NCBI GenBank assembly: GCA_944324225.1
Contig: CALUVL010000015.1
Coordinates: forward strand, 1 to 60,404
Direction: 5' to 3'
Origin: Candidatus Gastranaerophilales bacterium
Lineage (GTDB): Bacteria > Cyanobacteriota > Vampirovibrionia > Gastranaerophilales > Gastranaerophilaceae
Length of the DNA stretch: 60,404 bases
The translations under genes were made by a program, and so were the position numbers. Within the stretch, counting starts at the first letter, position 1; each line of letters begins with the position of its first letter. A model generated the notes under the pieces. The model was not told the DNA's origin and did not search any database. It saw only the letters and a program-made list of their open reading frames with translations. Below, piece after piece: positions 47,098 through 51,662 of the stretch.

Positions 47098-47126
47098 TTA
47101 AAGATTAAACGCCAAAATGCCGTCAT
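47098..47126 (+). promoter_or_regulatory. sigma-28-like promoter candidate for the 47181 gene
   Basis: TTAAAGATT at 47098-47106 and GCCGTCAT at 47119-47126 leave 16 bases between TAAA and GCCG. The flagellar-type sigma-28 consensus is TAAA, about 15 bases, GCCGATAA. The paralogue at 51592 has the same two blocks at exactly the same spacing. Confidence 0.45.
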
Positions 47127-47180: not shown

Positions 47181-48902
47181 ATGGGATTAGCGGCATCACA
47201 AGCAAGATTATTAACAATCACTGCCAGAAAGTCTGACTGTGAATATAAAAGCATGCTGCTTTCGCACCAGAAAATAGCATTGTCACGTGATATGAGCAGG
47301 CTTTCTGCAGAATATGATGATGCGATTGCTCAGACTAAATTGATTTACGATTATTACGGGAACAGCGAAGCAACACCATTAACTTACAACCTGATGATGA
47401 CACCATCAGCTATGAATAATTATACTCCGCTTCTTGTTACGGATAACGGAGGCCGAGTAGTGCTTGATTCAAGGCTTGCAAAAGCCGCAAGAGATGCGGG
47501 TATTCCGCAGGAAGGGCTTGATGGACTGCCGTCAAGTGATTTGCGTAATGCGTTTATTGATTCTCTTGCTTCAACTGGTTATATTACACAGAATACTGCT
47601 GATAATATTAAAAAGACATCTTATAACCAGACAGCAGGTGTAGGGTCTGCTGATTTGATTAATATCAATACAACAGAATGTACCCTGTCAGAATTGACTG
47701 GGATGTTAGATACTCAGTACTTTGATTTTACTGATGTTCTTTCTTTTACTAACCAGTTTGTAGATGGAGTTAAACTTGAAAACCGTGAAAGTGGAACAAA
47801 TGTTCCATCTCCAAATAACATGATAACATTCGCCGACATTATGAATGGCGATTATATGTTGTTGGCAGAAACACACGATGGTGATAACGGAGACACTTCA
47901 TACAACAACTTAACTGTTGATGGCGGCGTAACTGATGTAATCTGTGGATTAAGTTTGTGGGAAACAATGTTTCAAACATTTGAAGGGCTTTTGGATACCG
48001 GAGATGAATATACACAGGCTGCATTAGCATATGCAAGACGCATGATTACAGATATGCTTACTAATCTTGGCGCAGGAGAAGATGATGGTACTCGCGGTGA
48101 TTATGGAAGCCACGGCGGTATCGGTACTGTAGGTACAGAGGAAGGCAATGATTACAACACTGATGGTAAAAACTTCCACGACAACTTTGGGAGTTGGCGA
48201 GAACGCAATGATGCTTATGATAGCGAAGTTAATGAGCAAGCACGTGACAATATTTCTGCGGATGTTATTGGGTTAAATGGTATATACAACCACGATAATG
48301 ATGGTAAATCAGATGACGACTCTTGTATGTCAATTGTTACTATCAACATTTCTACTATGTTCGAAGCTTACCTGACATACTTTGCTCAGTACATGGAAGG
48401 TATTGATAATTCAGTTTATGAAGTTAACAATACAAAAACAAATTCAAACTTGATTGATGAAATGTTTACTTTCACAGTTGTTACGGATGTTGATACCTCA
48501 GGCGACAACCTTTTGATTGCGGCATTCTACGATACATTGTTTAACCAGATTTGTACTAAAGGCTGGACTGAAAATGACAAGGTTAACGATCAGTCTTATA
48601 TGCAGGAATCCATCAAAAATGGCAATATGTATATCTCAAGCCTTGCTGATGACGGCTACTATTATCAGGGCAACTACGCAACACACAATTACATCAAAGA
48701 AATTACCGATGAAGAAGCTGTTGCTCAGGCTGAAGCTAAGTACAACCGTGAAAAAGAAAAACTTAACTACAAAGAAAATATTCTTGATATGAAGATGAAA
48801 AACCTTGATACAGAGATTTCATCACTCACAACTGAATATGATACAATCAAATCAGTTATATCAAAGAATATTGAAAAAGGTTTTAAACGATATTCAGCAT
48901 AA
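47181..48902 (+). CDS. lineage-specific protein with conserved ends, paralogue 1
   Basis: A 573-residue protein without signal peptide or known domain. It starts MGLAASQARLLTITARKSD and ends with a coiled-coil helix holding LDTEISSLTTEYDTIKSVIS followed by KNIEKGF. Both ends match the 50468 gene, while the middle does not and is rich in Asp, Asn and Gly. Long helices at both termini with a variable centre recall the layout of flagellin-like and type III secreted structural proteins, but no homology is claimed. ATG 47181 is chosen by comparison with the paralogue; GAAAGGA lies 13 bases upstream. A hairpin terminator follows. Confidence 0.8.
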   Translation: MGLAASQARLLTITARKSDCEYKSMLLSHQKIALSRDMSRLSAEYDDAIAQTKLIYDYYGNSEATPLTYNLMMTPSAMNNYTPLLVTDNGGRVVLDSRLAKAARDAGIPQEGLDGLPSSDLRNAFIDSLASTGYITQNTADNIKKTSYNQTAGVGSADLININTTECTLSELTGMLDTQYFDFTDVLSFTNQFVDGVKLENRESGTNVPSPNNMITFADIMNGDYMLLAETHDGDNGDTSYNNLTVDGGVTDVICGLSLWETMFQTFEGLLDTGDEYTQAALAYARRMITDMLTNLGAGEDDGTRGDYGSHGGIGTVGTEEGNDYNTDGKNFHDNFGSWRERNDAYDSEVNEQARDNISADVIGLNGIYNHDNDGKSDDDSCMSIVTINISTMFEAYLTYFAQYMEGIDNSVYEVNNTKTNSNLIDEMFTFTVVTDVDTSGDNLLIAAFYDTLFNQICTKGWTENDKVNDQSYMQESIKNGNMYISSLADDGYYYQGNYATHNYIKEITDEEAVAQAEAKYNREKEKLNYKENILDMKMKNLDTEISSLTTEYDTIKSVISKNIEKGFKRYSA

Positions 48903-48903
48903 T

Positions 48904-48935
48904 AAATCCTCATACAAACTGTGTGAGGATTTAAT
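48904..48935 (+). terminator. terminator of the 47181 gene
   Basis: AAATCCTCATAC pairs with GTGTGAGGATTT (12 pairs, one G-T) around AAACT, one base after the TAA stop. A short T-rich tail follows. It ends this single-gene unit. Confidence 0.7.
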
Positions 48936-49271
48936 TTAATAGAATATTTATTAATTTATCTTTATGTTGTATAGCCACAAATGCCAGTAGGGCTGCTAAG
49001 CTGCCAATTTTATTAAAGTTTAATTCATTTAGTCTTTTGCTGGCATCCTGAATTAGCTTAATAAGTTTTAAAAGATGCTGAAGAAGACAGGACATTTGTC
49101 TGAAATCAAAGATTTTGGTAGAAGCCGTCAAATGTATGCGTCAGGTCCAAATGGCTTTTTAGATGTGTGATTTTTACTATTACCAAAATTAACATTCTTT
49201 TAGTTCATTAAGAAATTCAGCCCTCTAACATTATCAGCAGAGGACTGAACATTTTTTGTTTACAATTATCC
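48936..49271. other. intergenic stretch before trpS
   Basis: I see no reliable gene. A 66-codon minus-strand frame (48931-49131) begins with TTG and lacks a ribosome site. Near the right end is a plus-strand terminator at 49216 that has no matching upstream plus-strand gene after the one at 48904. Confidence 0.5.
49216..49257. terminator. hairpin downstream of trpS
   Basis: TTCAGCCCTCT pairs with AGAGGACTGAA with one mismatch, then CATTTTTTG follows on the plus strand. On the minus strand the tail is TTTCTT. It may end trpS on the minus strand and also act on plus-strand read-through. Confidence 0.6.
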
Positions 49272-50273
49272 TTAGTACATATTAACAAGACGTCTGACTT
49301 CTTTTAATACTTTTTGTGCTTCCTGTCTTGCTTTTTCAGAACCTTCTTTAATGATTTGGTGTACAACTTCCGGATGTGCTTCATAGTAAGCTCGTTTTTC
49401 ACGTATAGGAGCCATTTTTTCGTTGATAACTGCCGCAAGCTGGCGTTTGCAGTCGGCACAACCTCTTAAGCCTTTTTCGCATTCAGATTTAACAGTTTCA
49501 ATCTGCTCATTGGAGCCAAATATTTGCCAGTATTTGAAAGCCACTTCGCATTCATCCGGATGACCAGGATCGTCTTTTCTAATACGGCTTCTGTCAGTGA
49601 TTGCCGTCATAATCTTTTTAGCAGTAACTTCTGCTGTATCTGAAATTTTGATATCATTCTGGAAAGATTTACCCATCTTGTTGCCGTCGAGTCCGCAGAT
49701 TAAAGAACAATGATTTAAGAGCGGTTCGGGTTCATTAAAGAAGTCGCATTTGTAAATATTGTTGAACCTTCTTGCAATATCTCTCGTAATCTCAATATGT
49801 GCAACCTGATCTATTCCGACCGGTACATAAGAAGAATTGAACATCATAATATCTGCGCTCATTAATACGGGGTATCCCATCAGACCGTAACTAATTTGAG
49901 AATTGGCGCCTTCTTTTGTACGTAAAATTTTGGCCATGTCTTTCAGACAGGGGTCACGTTCAACCCAGTTCTGCGGGGTAATCATACCGAGATAGACGTT
50001 CAACTCGGCAATCTCAGGTACAAGCGACTGTACATATATTGTTGAAACTTCCGGATCAATCCCGCAGCTGAGCCAGTCTATTACAACATCAAGAACATCA
50101 GTTTTTAAGGTTTCCGTTTTGTCGTATTTTGTAGTCAGGGCGTGCCAGTCGGCGACAAAAAAGAAACTTTCATATTTTCTTTGAAGTTCAACCCAGTTCT
50201 GGATTACTCCAAGGTAATGTCCAAGGTGAAGTTTTCCTGTCGGCCGCATGCCGGATACAATTCTTTTATTCAT
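49272..50273 (-). CDS. trpS: tryptophanyl-tRNA synthetase
   Basis: TrpS charges tRNA-Trp. It is a class I synthetase: PTGKLHLGHYLG holds the HIGH-like motif and KMGKS the KMSKS loop. The 333-residue length is typical. GYPVLMSADIMM and VPVGIDQVAHIEITRDIA are family fingerprints. AAAGGACG precedes the ATG. It is a single gene between the two paralogues of the unknown family. No T-box leader was seen. Confidence 0.98.
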   Translation of the reverse strand: MNKRIVSGMRPTGKLHLGHYLGVIQNWVELQRKYESFFFVADWHALTTKYDKTETLKTDVLDVVIDWLSCGIDPEVSTIYVQSLVPEIAELNVYLGMITPQNWVERDPCLKDMAKILRTKEGANSQISYGLMGYPVLMSADIMMFNSSYVPVGIDQVAHIEITRDIARRFNNIYKCDFFNEPEPLLNHCSLICGLDGNKMGKSFQNDIKISDTAEVTAKKIMTAITDRSRIRKDDPGHPDECEVAFKYWQIFGSNEQIETVKSECEKGLRGCADCKRQLAAVINEKMAPIREKRAYYEAHPEVVHQIIKEGSEKARQEAQKVLKEVRRLVNMY

Positions 50274-50341
50274 ATTTCCACGTCCTTTCTACGCACATTA
50301 TTATAGCAAAAAATTTCGTAACTGAATAAATTTTGCATAAC

Positions 50342-50366
50342 AAAAACCGCTTTTTTAGAAAAGCGG
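50342..50366 (-). terminator. terminator of the 50468 gene
   Basis: On the minus strand CCGCTTTT and AAAAGCGG pair around a four-base loop, followed by five T and TG. It is about 100 bases past the stop codon of the paralogue gene and upstream of trpS, so it isolates the two. Confidence 0.75.
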
Positions 50367-50467
50367 CAGGGAATAGTTACGAAATTAGGGAAATATTATG
50401 TTTTTTAATGTATTACAATTTAGCCTTGCTTTTGAACAAGGAAATTATTTTTCTTTGTGGTGAGGTT

Positions 50468-51592
50468 TTATGAAAAGATGTTGAATGTTTTTTCAACATT
50501 CTTTTCGATTACGCTTTTAACGGAATCATATTCTGTCTGAAGTGCATTATGTTCTGAATCAAGTTTTTGAAGTTCAAGGTCGTATTTGTTGTCCAGTTGT
50601 TCGACTTTTTGAAGATCATTTTTGTATTTTTGTTCGACAAGCGCAATTTCTCTTTCGTCTTCAACTTCCTGAATATTTGTATCTTCAGAAATCGAAGTTG
50701 ATACAAATTTCTTTTCGCTTGTTGAGTAGTATTCAAGCTGTAATTCGCCTTTGCGTAATTGTTCTTCAAACCAGGTATTATCTTTAATTGTCATATTTGG
50801 ATCGGCTTCTGTGTAATAGCCGGTTTGTTGAATTCGCTGGAAAATATTTGTCAAATATTGAATATAACCGTAATTTTCGGGTTTTGCGGCTGTTTTGAGG
50901 TCTGTCGCTGAGTTTGAATCCCCGTAGTATGCTTCGGTTAAGGCCAGTGCATAATCGTAATTGTGACGCTGTTCTTCGGTTGTGCCTTCATAGTTCAGCG
51001 GAACCGTTTCTCCGTTGTATGTGTAGGTCGCATAACCGTTAAAATATCCGTCGCCAAGGCTTGTGTAACCGAATTCAAGCCCGTGTTCTTCATCTTCAAA
51101 TTCCAGACCGACGGATGTCAAATATACGTCCCATGCATCATGTATTTTTTGTTTTGTAATAAGTTTATCTTCATCTGTAGTTTCGCTGCCTTCTGTATTT
51201 TTGGTGATATCAATATCCGCCATTGAATACCCGAGGGCTGCTAAAAATTTGTTCAAATCACCGTTGCCGGACTCATATGCATCCGCAATATCTTTTGTTA
51301 CAAGAACTTTTCCGTCCTTATCTGTTACAACATACTGTTTGCCTGCTGCAACCGTGTTGTATCCGGTCATCAAACTGTATGAAATATCTGTATAGACTTC
51401 CTCAGAATCATTAAATCCTGTCAGAACGGTTAATTTTGTAGCATCGAGGGCCGCTAAATAATCGTTGTTCAACTGATCCATCTTATCAGCCAGCTGAATC
51501 TTAGCATAAGAAATGTCCTGACCTGAATTTTCGTTATCGGTCAGTCGTGCCGTAATACTCAGCAATCTTGCCTGTGAAGCGGACATTCCCAT
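50468..51592 (-). CDS. lineage-specific protein with conserved ends, paralogue 2
   Basis: A 374-residue protein of the same unknown family as the 47181 gene. It begins MGMSASQARLLSITARLTD, matching in about 14 of the first 19 residues, and ends with a helix holding KLDSEHNALQTEYDSVKSVI then KNVEKTF. The central part (residues about 70-310) is acidic, Tyr-rich and unlike the paralogue. No signal peptide or membrane helix is present. GAAAGGA lies 11 bases before the ATG. The promoter-like blocks upstream match those of the paralogue. Function unknown; a secreted or filament-type protein is one guess. Confidence 0.8.
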   Translation of the reverse strand: MGMSASQARLLSITARLTDNENSGQDISYAKIQLADKMDQLNNDYLAALDATKLTVLTGFNDSEEVYTDISYSLMTGYNTVAAGKQYVVTDKDGKVLVTKDIADAYESGNGDLNKFLAALGYSMADIDITKNTEGSETTDEDKLITKQKIHDAWDVYLTSVGLEFEDEEHGLEFGYTSLGDGYFNGYATYTYNGETVPLNYEGTTEEQRHNYDYALALTEAYYGDSNSATDLKTAAKPENYGYIQYLTNIFQRIQQTGYYTEADPNMTIKDNTWFEEQLRKGELQLEYYSTSEKKFVSTSISEDTNIQEVEDEREIALVEQKYKNDLQKVEQLDNKYDLELQKLDSEHNALQTEYDSVKSVIEKNVEKTFNIFS

Positions 51593-51633: not shown

Positions 51634-51662
51634 TTTACGACATCGGGATGAAAAATCTTTAA
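51634..51662 (-). promoter_or_regulatory. sigma-28-like promoter candidate for the 50468 gene
   Basis: On the minus strand TTAAAGATT (51662-51654) is followed, with 16 bases after TAAA, by GTCGTAAA (51641-51634). Block sequences and spacing match the candidate at 47098. No standard TTGACA/TATAAT pair competes in the same place. Confidence 0.45.

Follow-up and report, generated by a model that had tools for sequence, protein, structure and literature searches.

Proteins with fixed terminal helices and divergent middles as candidate late substrates of a flagellum-derived type III export system in Gastranaerophilaceae

What is the role of two proteins that share both of their ends and hardly anything between them? 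The question is raised by W1 and W2, of 573 and 374 residues, encoded on a contig of a Candidatus Gastranaerophilales bacterium (GenBank assembly GCA_944324225.1, contig CALUVL010000015.1, positions 1 to 60,404; this whole stretch of 60,404 nucleotides is called the window). The Gastranaerophilaceae are non-photosynthetic relatives of cyanobacteria. An earlier note, made from the letters of the window alone, had described the common end blocks and guessed at flagellin-like or secreted assembly proteins. Promoters, export machine, gene linkage, protein layout and mosaicism, taken together, are best explained if the proteins are late type III substrates. In particular, W1 and W2 are probably late substrates of a flagellin-less, flagellum-derived type III system that is conserved across the sampled Gastranaerophilaceae, and the family to which they belong very probably consists of substrates of a flagellum-type export system.

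The family and its shared ends

Both open reading frames (ORFs) of the window, with the N- and C-terminal blocks described for them, were confirmed. By BLASTP, W1 and W2 align over residues 1-105 with 37% identity (E 4e-13) and over the last ~125 residues with 30% identity (E 1e-15), so that the shared ends exceed the short motifs of the earlier note, and no convincing alignment was found between the end blocks. Among W1 homologs, mean pairwise identity is 0.72 both for residues 1-60 and for residues 521-573, and 0.16-0.23 for residues 181-360. The statement that there is little between the common ends holds for W1 against W2 and for paralogs in general, but not for W1 orthologs, which can be aligned over their whole length. 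Full-length homologs of W1 occur at more than 50 loci, several of them adjoining fliN-O-P-Q-R, and full-length orthologs of W2 at only four close loci (L050-L053; loci fetched from genomes are numbered in this way, and contigs of the window's own genome as C4, C13 and so on).

A profile hidden Markov model built from seven members was searched with a threshold of E <= 1e-5. It matches 62 of 62 sampled genomes of Gastranaerophilaceae, usually at least nine times per genome, nine being the number of candidates scored in each. In 84 further genomes from the phylum, three of them from the same class, it has no match; a profile search, as proposed in the earlier note, recovers the family throughout this bacterial family and in none of the others sampled. 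The closest relatives lie mostly on contigs labelled Candidatus Gastranaerophilales. The genome to which the window belongs (hereafter the host genome; 1.93 Mb, 28 contigs, 99% complete) contains at least ten members, which are scattered single genes with unrelated middles, and every complete one carries both ends within one ORF. The co-occurrence of the end blocks in other proteins, on which the earlier proposal had been made to depend, is seen in 114 ORFs of the fetched loci, where the C-terminal block stops 0-4 residues before the C-terminus and members range from 333 to 775 residues. One-ended ORFs number 17, of which 12 are cut by the end of a contig or locus, the other five being three headless mini proteins, a fragment (L120:1160-1453) and a member on the chimeric contig L106. 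Judged from these sequences, the shared end pattern is not chance.

The three headless relatives (L006:7485-7811, L055:2816-3166 and L056:2133-2504) have 107-123 residues, with both ends and almost no middle, and are comparable in length to a helical-hairpin needle subunit; their existence suggests that the ends can stand without a middle. The member on L106 (1900-3879) joins the N-terminal half of a family protein to a piece of a GH36 alpha-galactosidase. Its contig, titled Ruminococcaceae, stops inside the GH36 domain and is most likely a chimeric metagenome contig, and this glycosidase fusion was discarded.

Known families offered no name for these proteins. Pfam gave no flagellin match for W1, W2 and ~75 relatives; W2 had no Pfam match of any kind and W1 a single sub-threshold one. 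NCBIfam and PHROGs searches on members returned only noise, and a PDB sequence search with a W1 profile returned no credible match. The motif ASQARLL was not found in the literature searched, and the literature joining Melainabacteria or Gastranaerophilales with type III secretion is, judging by titles and counts, sparse and incidental.

Promoters, export machine and gene linkage

The genes of the family are preceded by a sequence with the consensus tTTAAAGtTTt......aaAA.gCCGTaa, which has the form of a sigma-28 (FliA)-type promoter. A strict version of this motif stands before 87 of 104 family genes, against 0.25 of 104 expected after shuffling; of the 478 other genes that have an upstream gap, 10 carry it. 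The Fisher P for the enrichment, 6e-74, overstates it, since orthologs do not count as independent cases and ten of the genes scored were those that first revealed the motif; the contrast between family and other genes, as read from the sequences, is nonetheless large. The 10 other genes include one true flagellin (L136:991-1923), which serves as a positive control, and one family member. Among the 87 motif-bearing genes the spacer after TAAA is 16 in 80, and the median distance from motif to start codon is 57 nucleotides. Both strands of the window contain four matches in all, of which one falls exactly at W1 and another exactly at W2. In the host genome the strict motif is found at six of ten members, and L003, L004 and L005 have it, by eye, with one mismatch. 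With a slightly tighter motif, all fetched loci yield 126 distinct sites, of which 85 precede family genes of the scored set, and other members account for at least six further sites. The sigma factor itself is also present: 39 of 40 genomes of the bacterial family, among them genomes without flagellin, have a FliA/WhiG match that passes the curated cut-off, and in the host genome it lies at C13:28296-28958. The regulatory signature of a late substrate, a sigma-28-type promoter in a genome that encodes FliA, thus appears to be in place.

Separately, the same motif lies before several genes for unknown proteins, one for a LysM-amidase protein and, next to fliA, one for an OmpA-domain protein. 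These other genes (L146:2205-2765, L054:551-2380, L064:11160-11657, L086:4067-4468, L107:508-930 and L108:11472-13220) are candidate further members of the regulon.

Because the layout of the proteins recalls type III axial proteins, the FHIPEP domain (FlhA/SctV) was searched for. It was found in 39 of 40 genomes of the bacterial family, the exception being a genome only 63% complete. Specifically, the host genome encodes a flagellum-type export core, as a late substrate would need, in several clusters: FliE, FliF, FliH and FlhA (L047); FliN-like, FliO, FliP, FliQ and FliR (L129/L140); two FlgF/G-like rod proteins, FlgB and FlgC (L139); and, elsewhere, FliI (L130/L141) and FlhB. Against the curated flagellar cut-offs FlhA (693.5 against 772), FliF (120 against 130), FlgB (55 against 59) and FlgC (100 against 102) all fall short, the FlhA equivalog included, which points to a divergent lineage; the FliP equivalog, at 234, exceeds its cut-off of 217.45. 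The injectisome models for SctV and SctR also stay below theirs (hrcV 583 bits against 692, yscR 202.7 against 208.6). The system resembles the non-flagellar injectisome (SctV/SctR/SctC) in being a candidate for non-motile type III export and differs from it in that FlhA and FliP score higher as flagellar proteins and that flagellar rod genes are present.

The host genome has no match to flagellin (PF00669), which is present in 17 of 40 genomes of the bacterial family, nor was FliG found in it, a gene present in 16 of the 40; the combination of flagellin and FliG that marks a functional flagellum is therefore missing there. The 17 flagellin-bearing genomes are exactly those with a second, higher-scoring FlhA. 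In 61 of 62 genomes, from different genera, the common FlhA has 80-100% identity; the remaining one (G063) has a weaker, C-terminal match only. In addition, two host-genome proteins (L048:7921-9396 and L049:6374-8149) have, behind N-termini of other kinds, just the C-terminal, cytoplasmic part of FlhA; one occurs almost throughout the bacterial family and the other in the host's genus, and they are possible substrate- or chaperone-docking decoys.

A partial flagellar gene set has been described in Gastranaerophilales, where it was held to encode no functional flagellum or to reflect ongoing genome reduction (Di Rienzi 2013, PMC3787301; Soo 2014, PMC4040986). Probably these are the same genes as the export machine described here; the passages concerned take the set as a non-functional remnant and mention neither the present candidate substrates nor their promoters. 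A rival reading joins to this published view of genome reduction, by which the flagellar genes are leftovers of a lost flagellum, the claim that the protein family is unrelated to them. Such a reading is extremely unlikely, given that elsewhere in the bacterial family the machine coexists with a second, flagellin-bearing flagellar set and that FliA and the promoters are maintained, and an FlhA of such identity across genera is hardly a gene in decay.

Cases in which the export core is kept and the filament lost are known elsewhere. Buchnera retains hook-basal bodies. The non-flagellated Lysobacter enzymogenes OH11 is reported to use flagellar export homologues in the control of twitching (PMC7277350). 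In contrast to both, the present machine is a distinct one found throughout a bacterial family, some members of which have flagellin-bearing sets besides, and a large family of candidate substrates, preceded by FliA-type promoters, goes with it.

Gene order also connects family and machine. W1-type members lie divergent from fliN-O-P-Q-R, 190-210 nucleotides apart, in L059, L061, L064, L065, L071 and L102, and at the same distance from fliN in L024 and L027, eight loci in total. The member of L114 stands 118 nucleotides before fliI, and those of L092, L081 and L067 lie 2-6 kb or less from fliI or fliE-F. A rough binomial estimate for 10 linked loci of 79 gives P ~ 1e-4, with an assumed background of 3% and loci that are not independent.

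Terminal helices, divergent middles and possible assembly

The AlphaFold2 model of W1, computed from 53 sequences, has a mean predicted local distance difference test score (pLDDT) of 76.5 and a predicted template modelling score of 0.47; its end blocks form helices with pLDDT mostly 80-91, and its middle is alpha/beta. The model of W2 has corresponding helices, residues 125-232 being unreliable (Table 1). Long terminal helices, and not the ordinary enzyme fold that would have contradicted the earlier note, are thus what the models present. Compared with known structures by VIA-align, W1 ranks flagellar filament and cap complexes first (Z 9.2 and 9.0), the filament 9n59_A matching with a root-mean-square deviation of 2.4 over 106 residues at Z 9.2; generic coiled coils match too. 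Since the two helices are matched together to a pair within a single chain, the alignments, from which packing was judged rather than from the model coordinates themselves, suggest that the helices pack together. A Foldseek search of the W1 model against PDB gave no match at E <= 0.001.

Table 1. Features of W1 and W2, with positions in the window
Feature	Positions	Strand	Sequence or basis
W1, family member, 573 residues	47181-48902	+	MGLAASQARLLTITAR...TEYDTIKSVISKNIEK
Sigma-28 (FliA)-type promoter of W1	47099..47123	+	TAAAGATTAAACGCCAAAATGCCGT, 57 nt before ATG
W1 N-terminal helix, residues 2-49, conserved end block	47184..47327	+	AlphaFold2 model, conservation
W1 divergent middle, ~residues 181-360	47721..48260	+	Low pairwise identity, no Pfam domain
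W1 C-terminal helix, residues 511-572, conserved end block	48711..48896	+	AlphaFold2 model, conservation
W2, family member, 374 residues	50468-51592	-	MGMSASQARLLSITAR...TEYDSVKSVIEKNVEK
Sigma-28 (FliA)-type promoter of W2	51637..51661	-	TAAAGATTTTTCATCCCGATGTCGT, 44 nt before ATG
W2 N-terminal helix, residues 2-49	51446..51589	-	AlphaFold2 model
W2 C-terminal helix, residues 313-373	50474..50656	-	AlphaFold2 model

The lack of a signal peptide, claimed earlier, is supported by hydropathy: in the first 45 residues of 114 members the maximum is 1.13 over 15 residues, with no N-terminal hydrophobic segment, as expected of Sec-independent late substrates, and only 3 of the 114 reach 1.6 over 19 residues anywhere. 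The same properties would suit cytoplasmic coiled-coil proteins that belong to the sigma-28 regulon and are never exported: there is no Sec signal, nearly all members are without a transmembrane-like segment, and the structural matches include generic coiled coils. Such proteins are nevertheless a very unlikely explanation, as flagellin-type promoters, linkage to export genes, co-occurrence with the machine and rapid divergence of the middles fit export better.

Signs of exchange between members were seen in one pair of host-genome paralogs, L003 and L004, compared over the parts that were sequenced. Their upstream flanks are unrelated; the DNA is ~94% identical from -43 to +493, with 100% near the start codon; the middles are again unrelated, and 98% identity follows from ~+1006 to the contig end. 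This mosaic repeats in DNA the layout noted for the proteins and indicates gene conversion or recombination that exchanges middles. Both contigs terminate in identical 77 bases, and L009 and L010 likewise have 77 bases in common at the C-terminal coding end, which suggests that the assembly broke within identical stretches of family genes. Five contig ends of the host genome fall inside family genes (the ends of L003 and L009 and the starts of L004, L005 and L010). As the family breaks short-read assemblies, its copy numbers are probably underestimated.

Scattered single genes with unrelated middles, a mosaic pair differing in the middle and a wide range of sizes would all be at home among effectors or adhesins that this export system secretes individually, whose ends would serve as an export or chaperone handle and whose middles would act on cells of the host or on microbes nearby, without forming a polymer. 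We consider this rather unlikely. Type III effectors normally require an N-terminal signal only. In the present family, by contrast, conservation is as strong at one end as at the other and reaches the last residues, a pattern of axial proteins which favours polymer-forming proteins over effectors, and no enzyme or toxin domain was found in ~75 members. For the choice between an extracellular appendage and single secreted effectors or adhesins, we hold the scales level.

Flagellin (FliC/Hag, PF00669/PF00700) and the axial proteins FlgK, FlgL and FliD likewise combine fixed terminal helices, which the present proteins have in their models, with a variable centre, a sigma-28-type promoter, the lack of a signal peptide, a flagellum-type export machine and membership of a multigene family. 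Unlike flagellin, the present proteins have no detectable sequence homology to it, their host genome lacks flagellin and FliG, and polymerisation is a step that we infer. The modelled layout, then, resembles that of flagellin. Accordingly, the earlier guess of flagellin-like or secreted assembly proteins is well supported as regards regulatory slot and layout, through the sigma-28-type promoters, the linkage to the export machine, the missing signal peptide, the modelled terminal helices and the filament matches, but not as flagellin by sequence, and the helix pairs also match MukB and SMC.

Should the proteins be late type III substrates that assemble, FliA (sigma-28) would transcribe their genes from the flagellin-type promoters, and the unfolded products would cross the FliE/FliF-FlhA/FlhB/FliP/FliQ/FliR-FliI machine and the FlgB/FlgC/FlgF-G-like rod. 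Once outside the cell, the helices of the two ends would pair, their coiled coil forming the assembly core as in flagellin, with the variable middle facing outward, while recombination between paralogs would hold the ends fixed and swap the middles. The most far-reaching form of this proposal is an unrecognised type III appendage system in gut Gastranaerophilaceae, derived from the flagellum and separate from the true one present in some of them, that builds non-motile surface structures from a large family of recombining, flagellin-analogous proteins without sequence kinship to flagellin; we put it forward tentatively, at a little under even chances.

Several points weigh against late substrates that assemble. 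Most members lie away from export genes, and 17 of 104 family genes, including L006 of the host genome, lack the promoter motif. W2 scores the generic coiled coils MukB and SMC (Z ~11) above flagellin (Z ~8), and the structural Z scores are within the range that VIA-align warns is common for long helices. By hhalign, the probability of a match to flagellins of the same bacterial family is 0.1%, with no flagellin sequence homology. What was computed here comprises the family, its ends, its promoters, the machine genes, the absence of flagellin and FliG, the linkage and one mosaic pair; that the proteins are exported, polymerise and are displayed at the surface, and what their variation is for, we infer.

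Neighbouring genes and implications

Between W1 and W2, the ORF at 49272-50273 resembles, by eye, a tryptophanyl-tRNA synthetase. On contig C4 of the host genome (L141:10513-14258 and L001:336-6621) a family member is preceded by a phage-type block of endolysin, major head protein, terminase small subunit, a portal-like protein and a 429-residue terminase large subunit, which in many stretches secA also follows. The block recurs in L090, L091, L093, L095, L099, L109-L111, L113-L115, L117, L118, L125-L127 and L154-L160. Its terminase holds its position in many genomes, with 78-98% identity and, for measurable pairs, a ratio of nonsynonymous to synonymous substitution rates of 0.02-0.11. This positional conservation argues against a fresh prophage insertion, and from its genes the block looks like a domesticated prophage or a gene-transfer-agent candidate. 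That the family might be prophage cargo, as the position of L001 beside terminase and portal genes could suggest, was rejected, most members lying elsewhere. An IMG/VR contig (L161:1448-5554) has a more divergent, 337-residue member beside endolysin and virion-like genes resembling the block, which hints that the association extends beyond the sampled loci.

Many unknown proteins of the host genome, moreover, start, by eye, with a loose common pattern of M-x-I/V and, no more than ~20 residues further on, an N-rich stretch and F-G or F-x-G/K (for example window:42395-43912, L048:2022-2462, L048:5813-7870 and L009:2958-3976); this is perhaps another export signal.

The reduced flagellar gene set of these animal-gut bacteria has so far been read as a decaying flagellum. 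The present data speak rather for a secretion machine that is maintained and has a sigma factor and promoters of its own and, in the host genome, at least ten candidate substrates whose middles are apparently shuffled by recombination. If this is true, it would represent one of the main interfaces, at the surface or by secretion, of a little-studied lineage of the gut, a further instance of a flagellum put to other use and, possibly, a non-flagellin answer to the same assembly problem.

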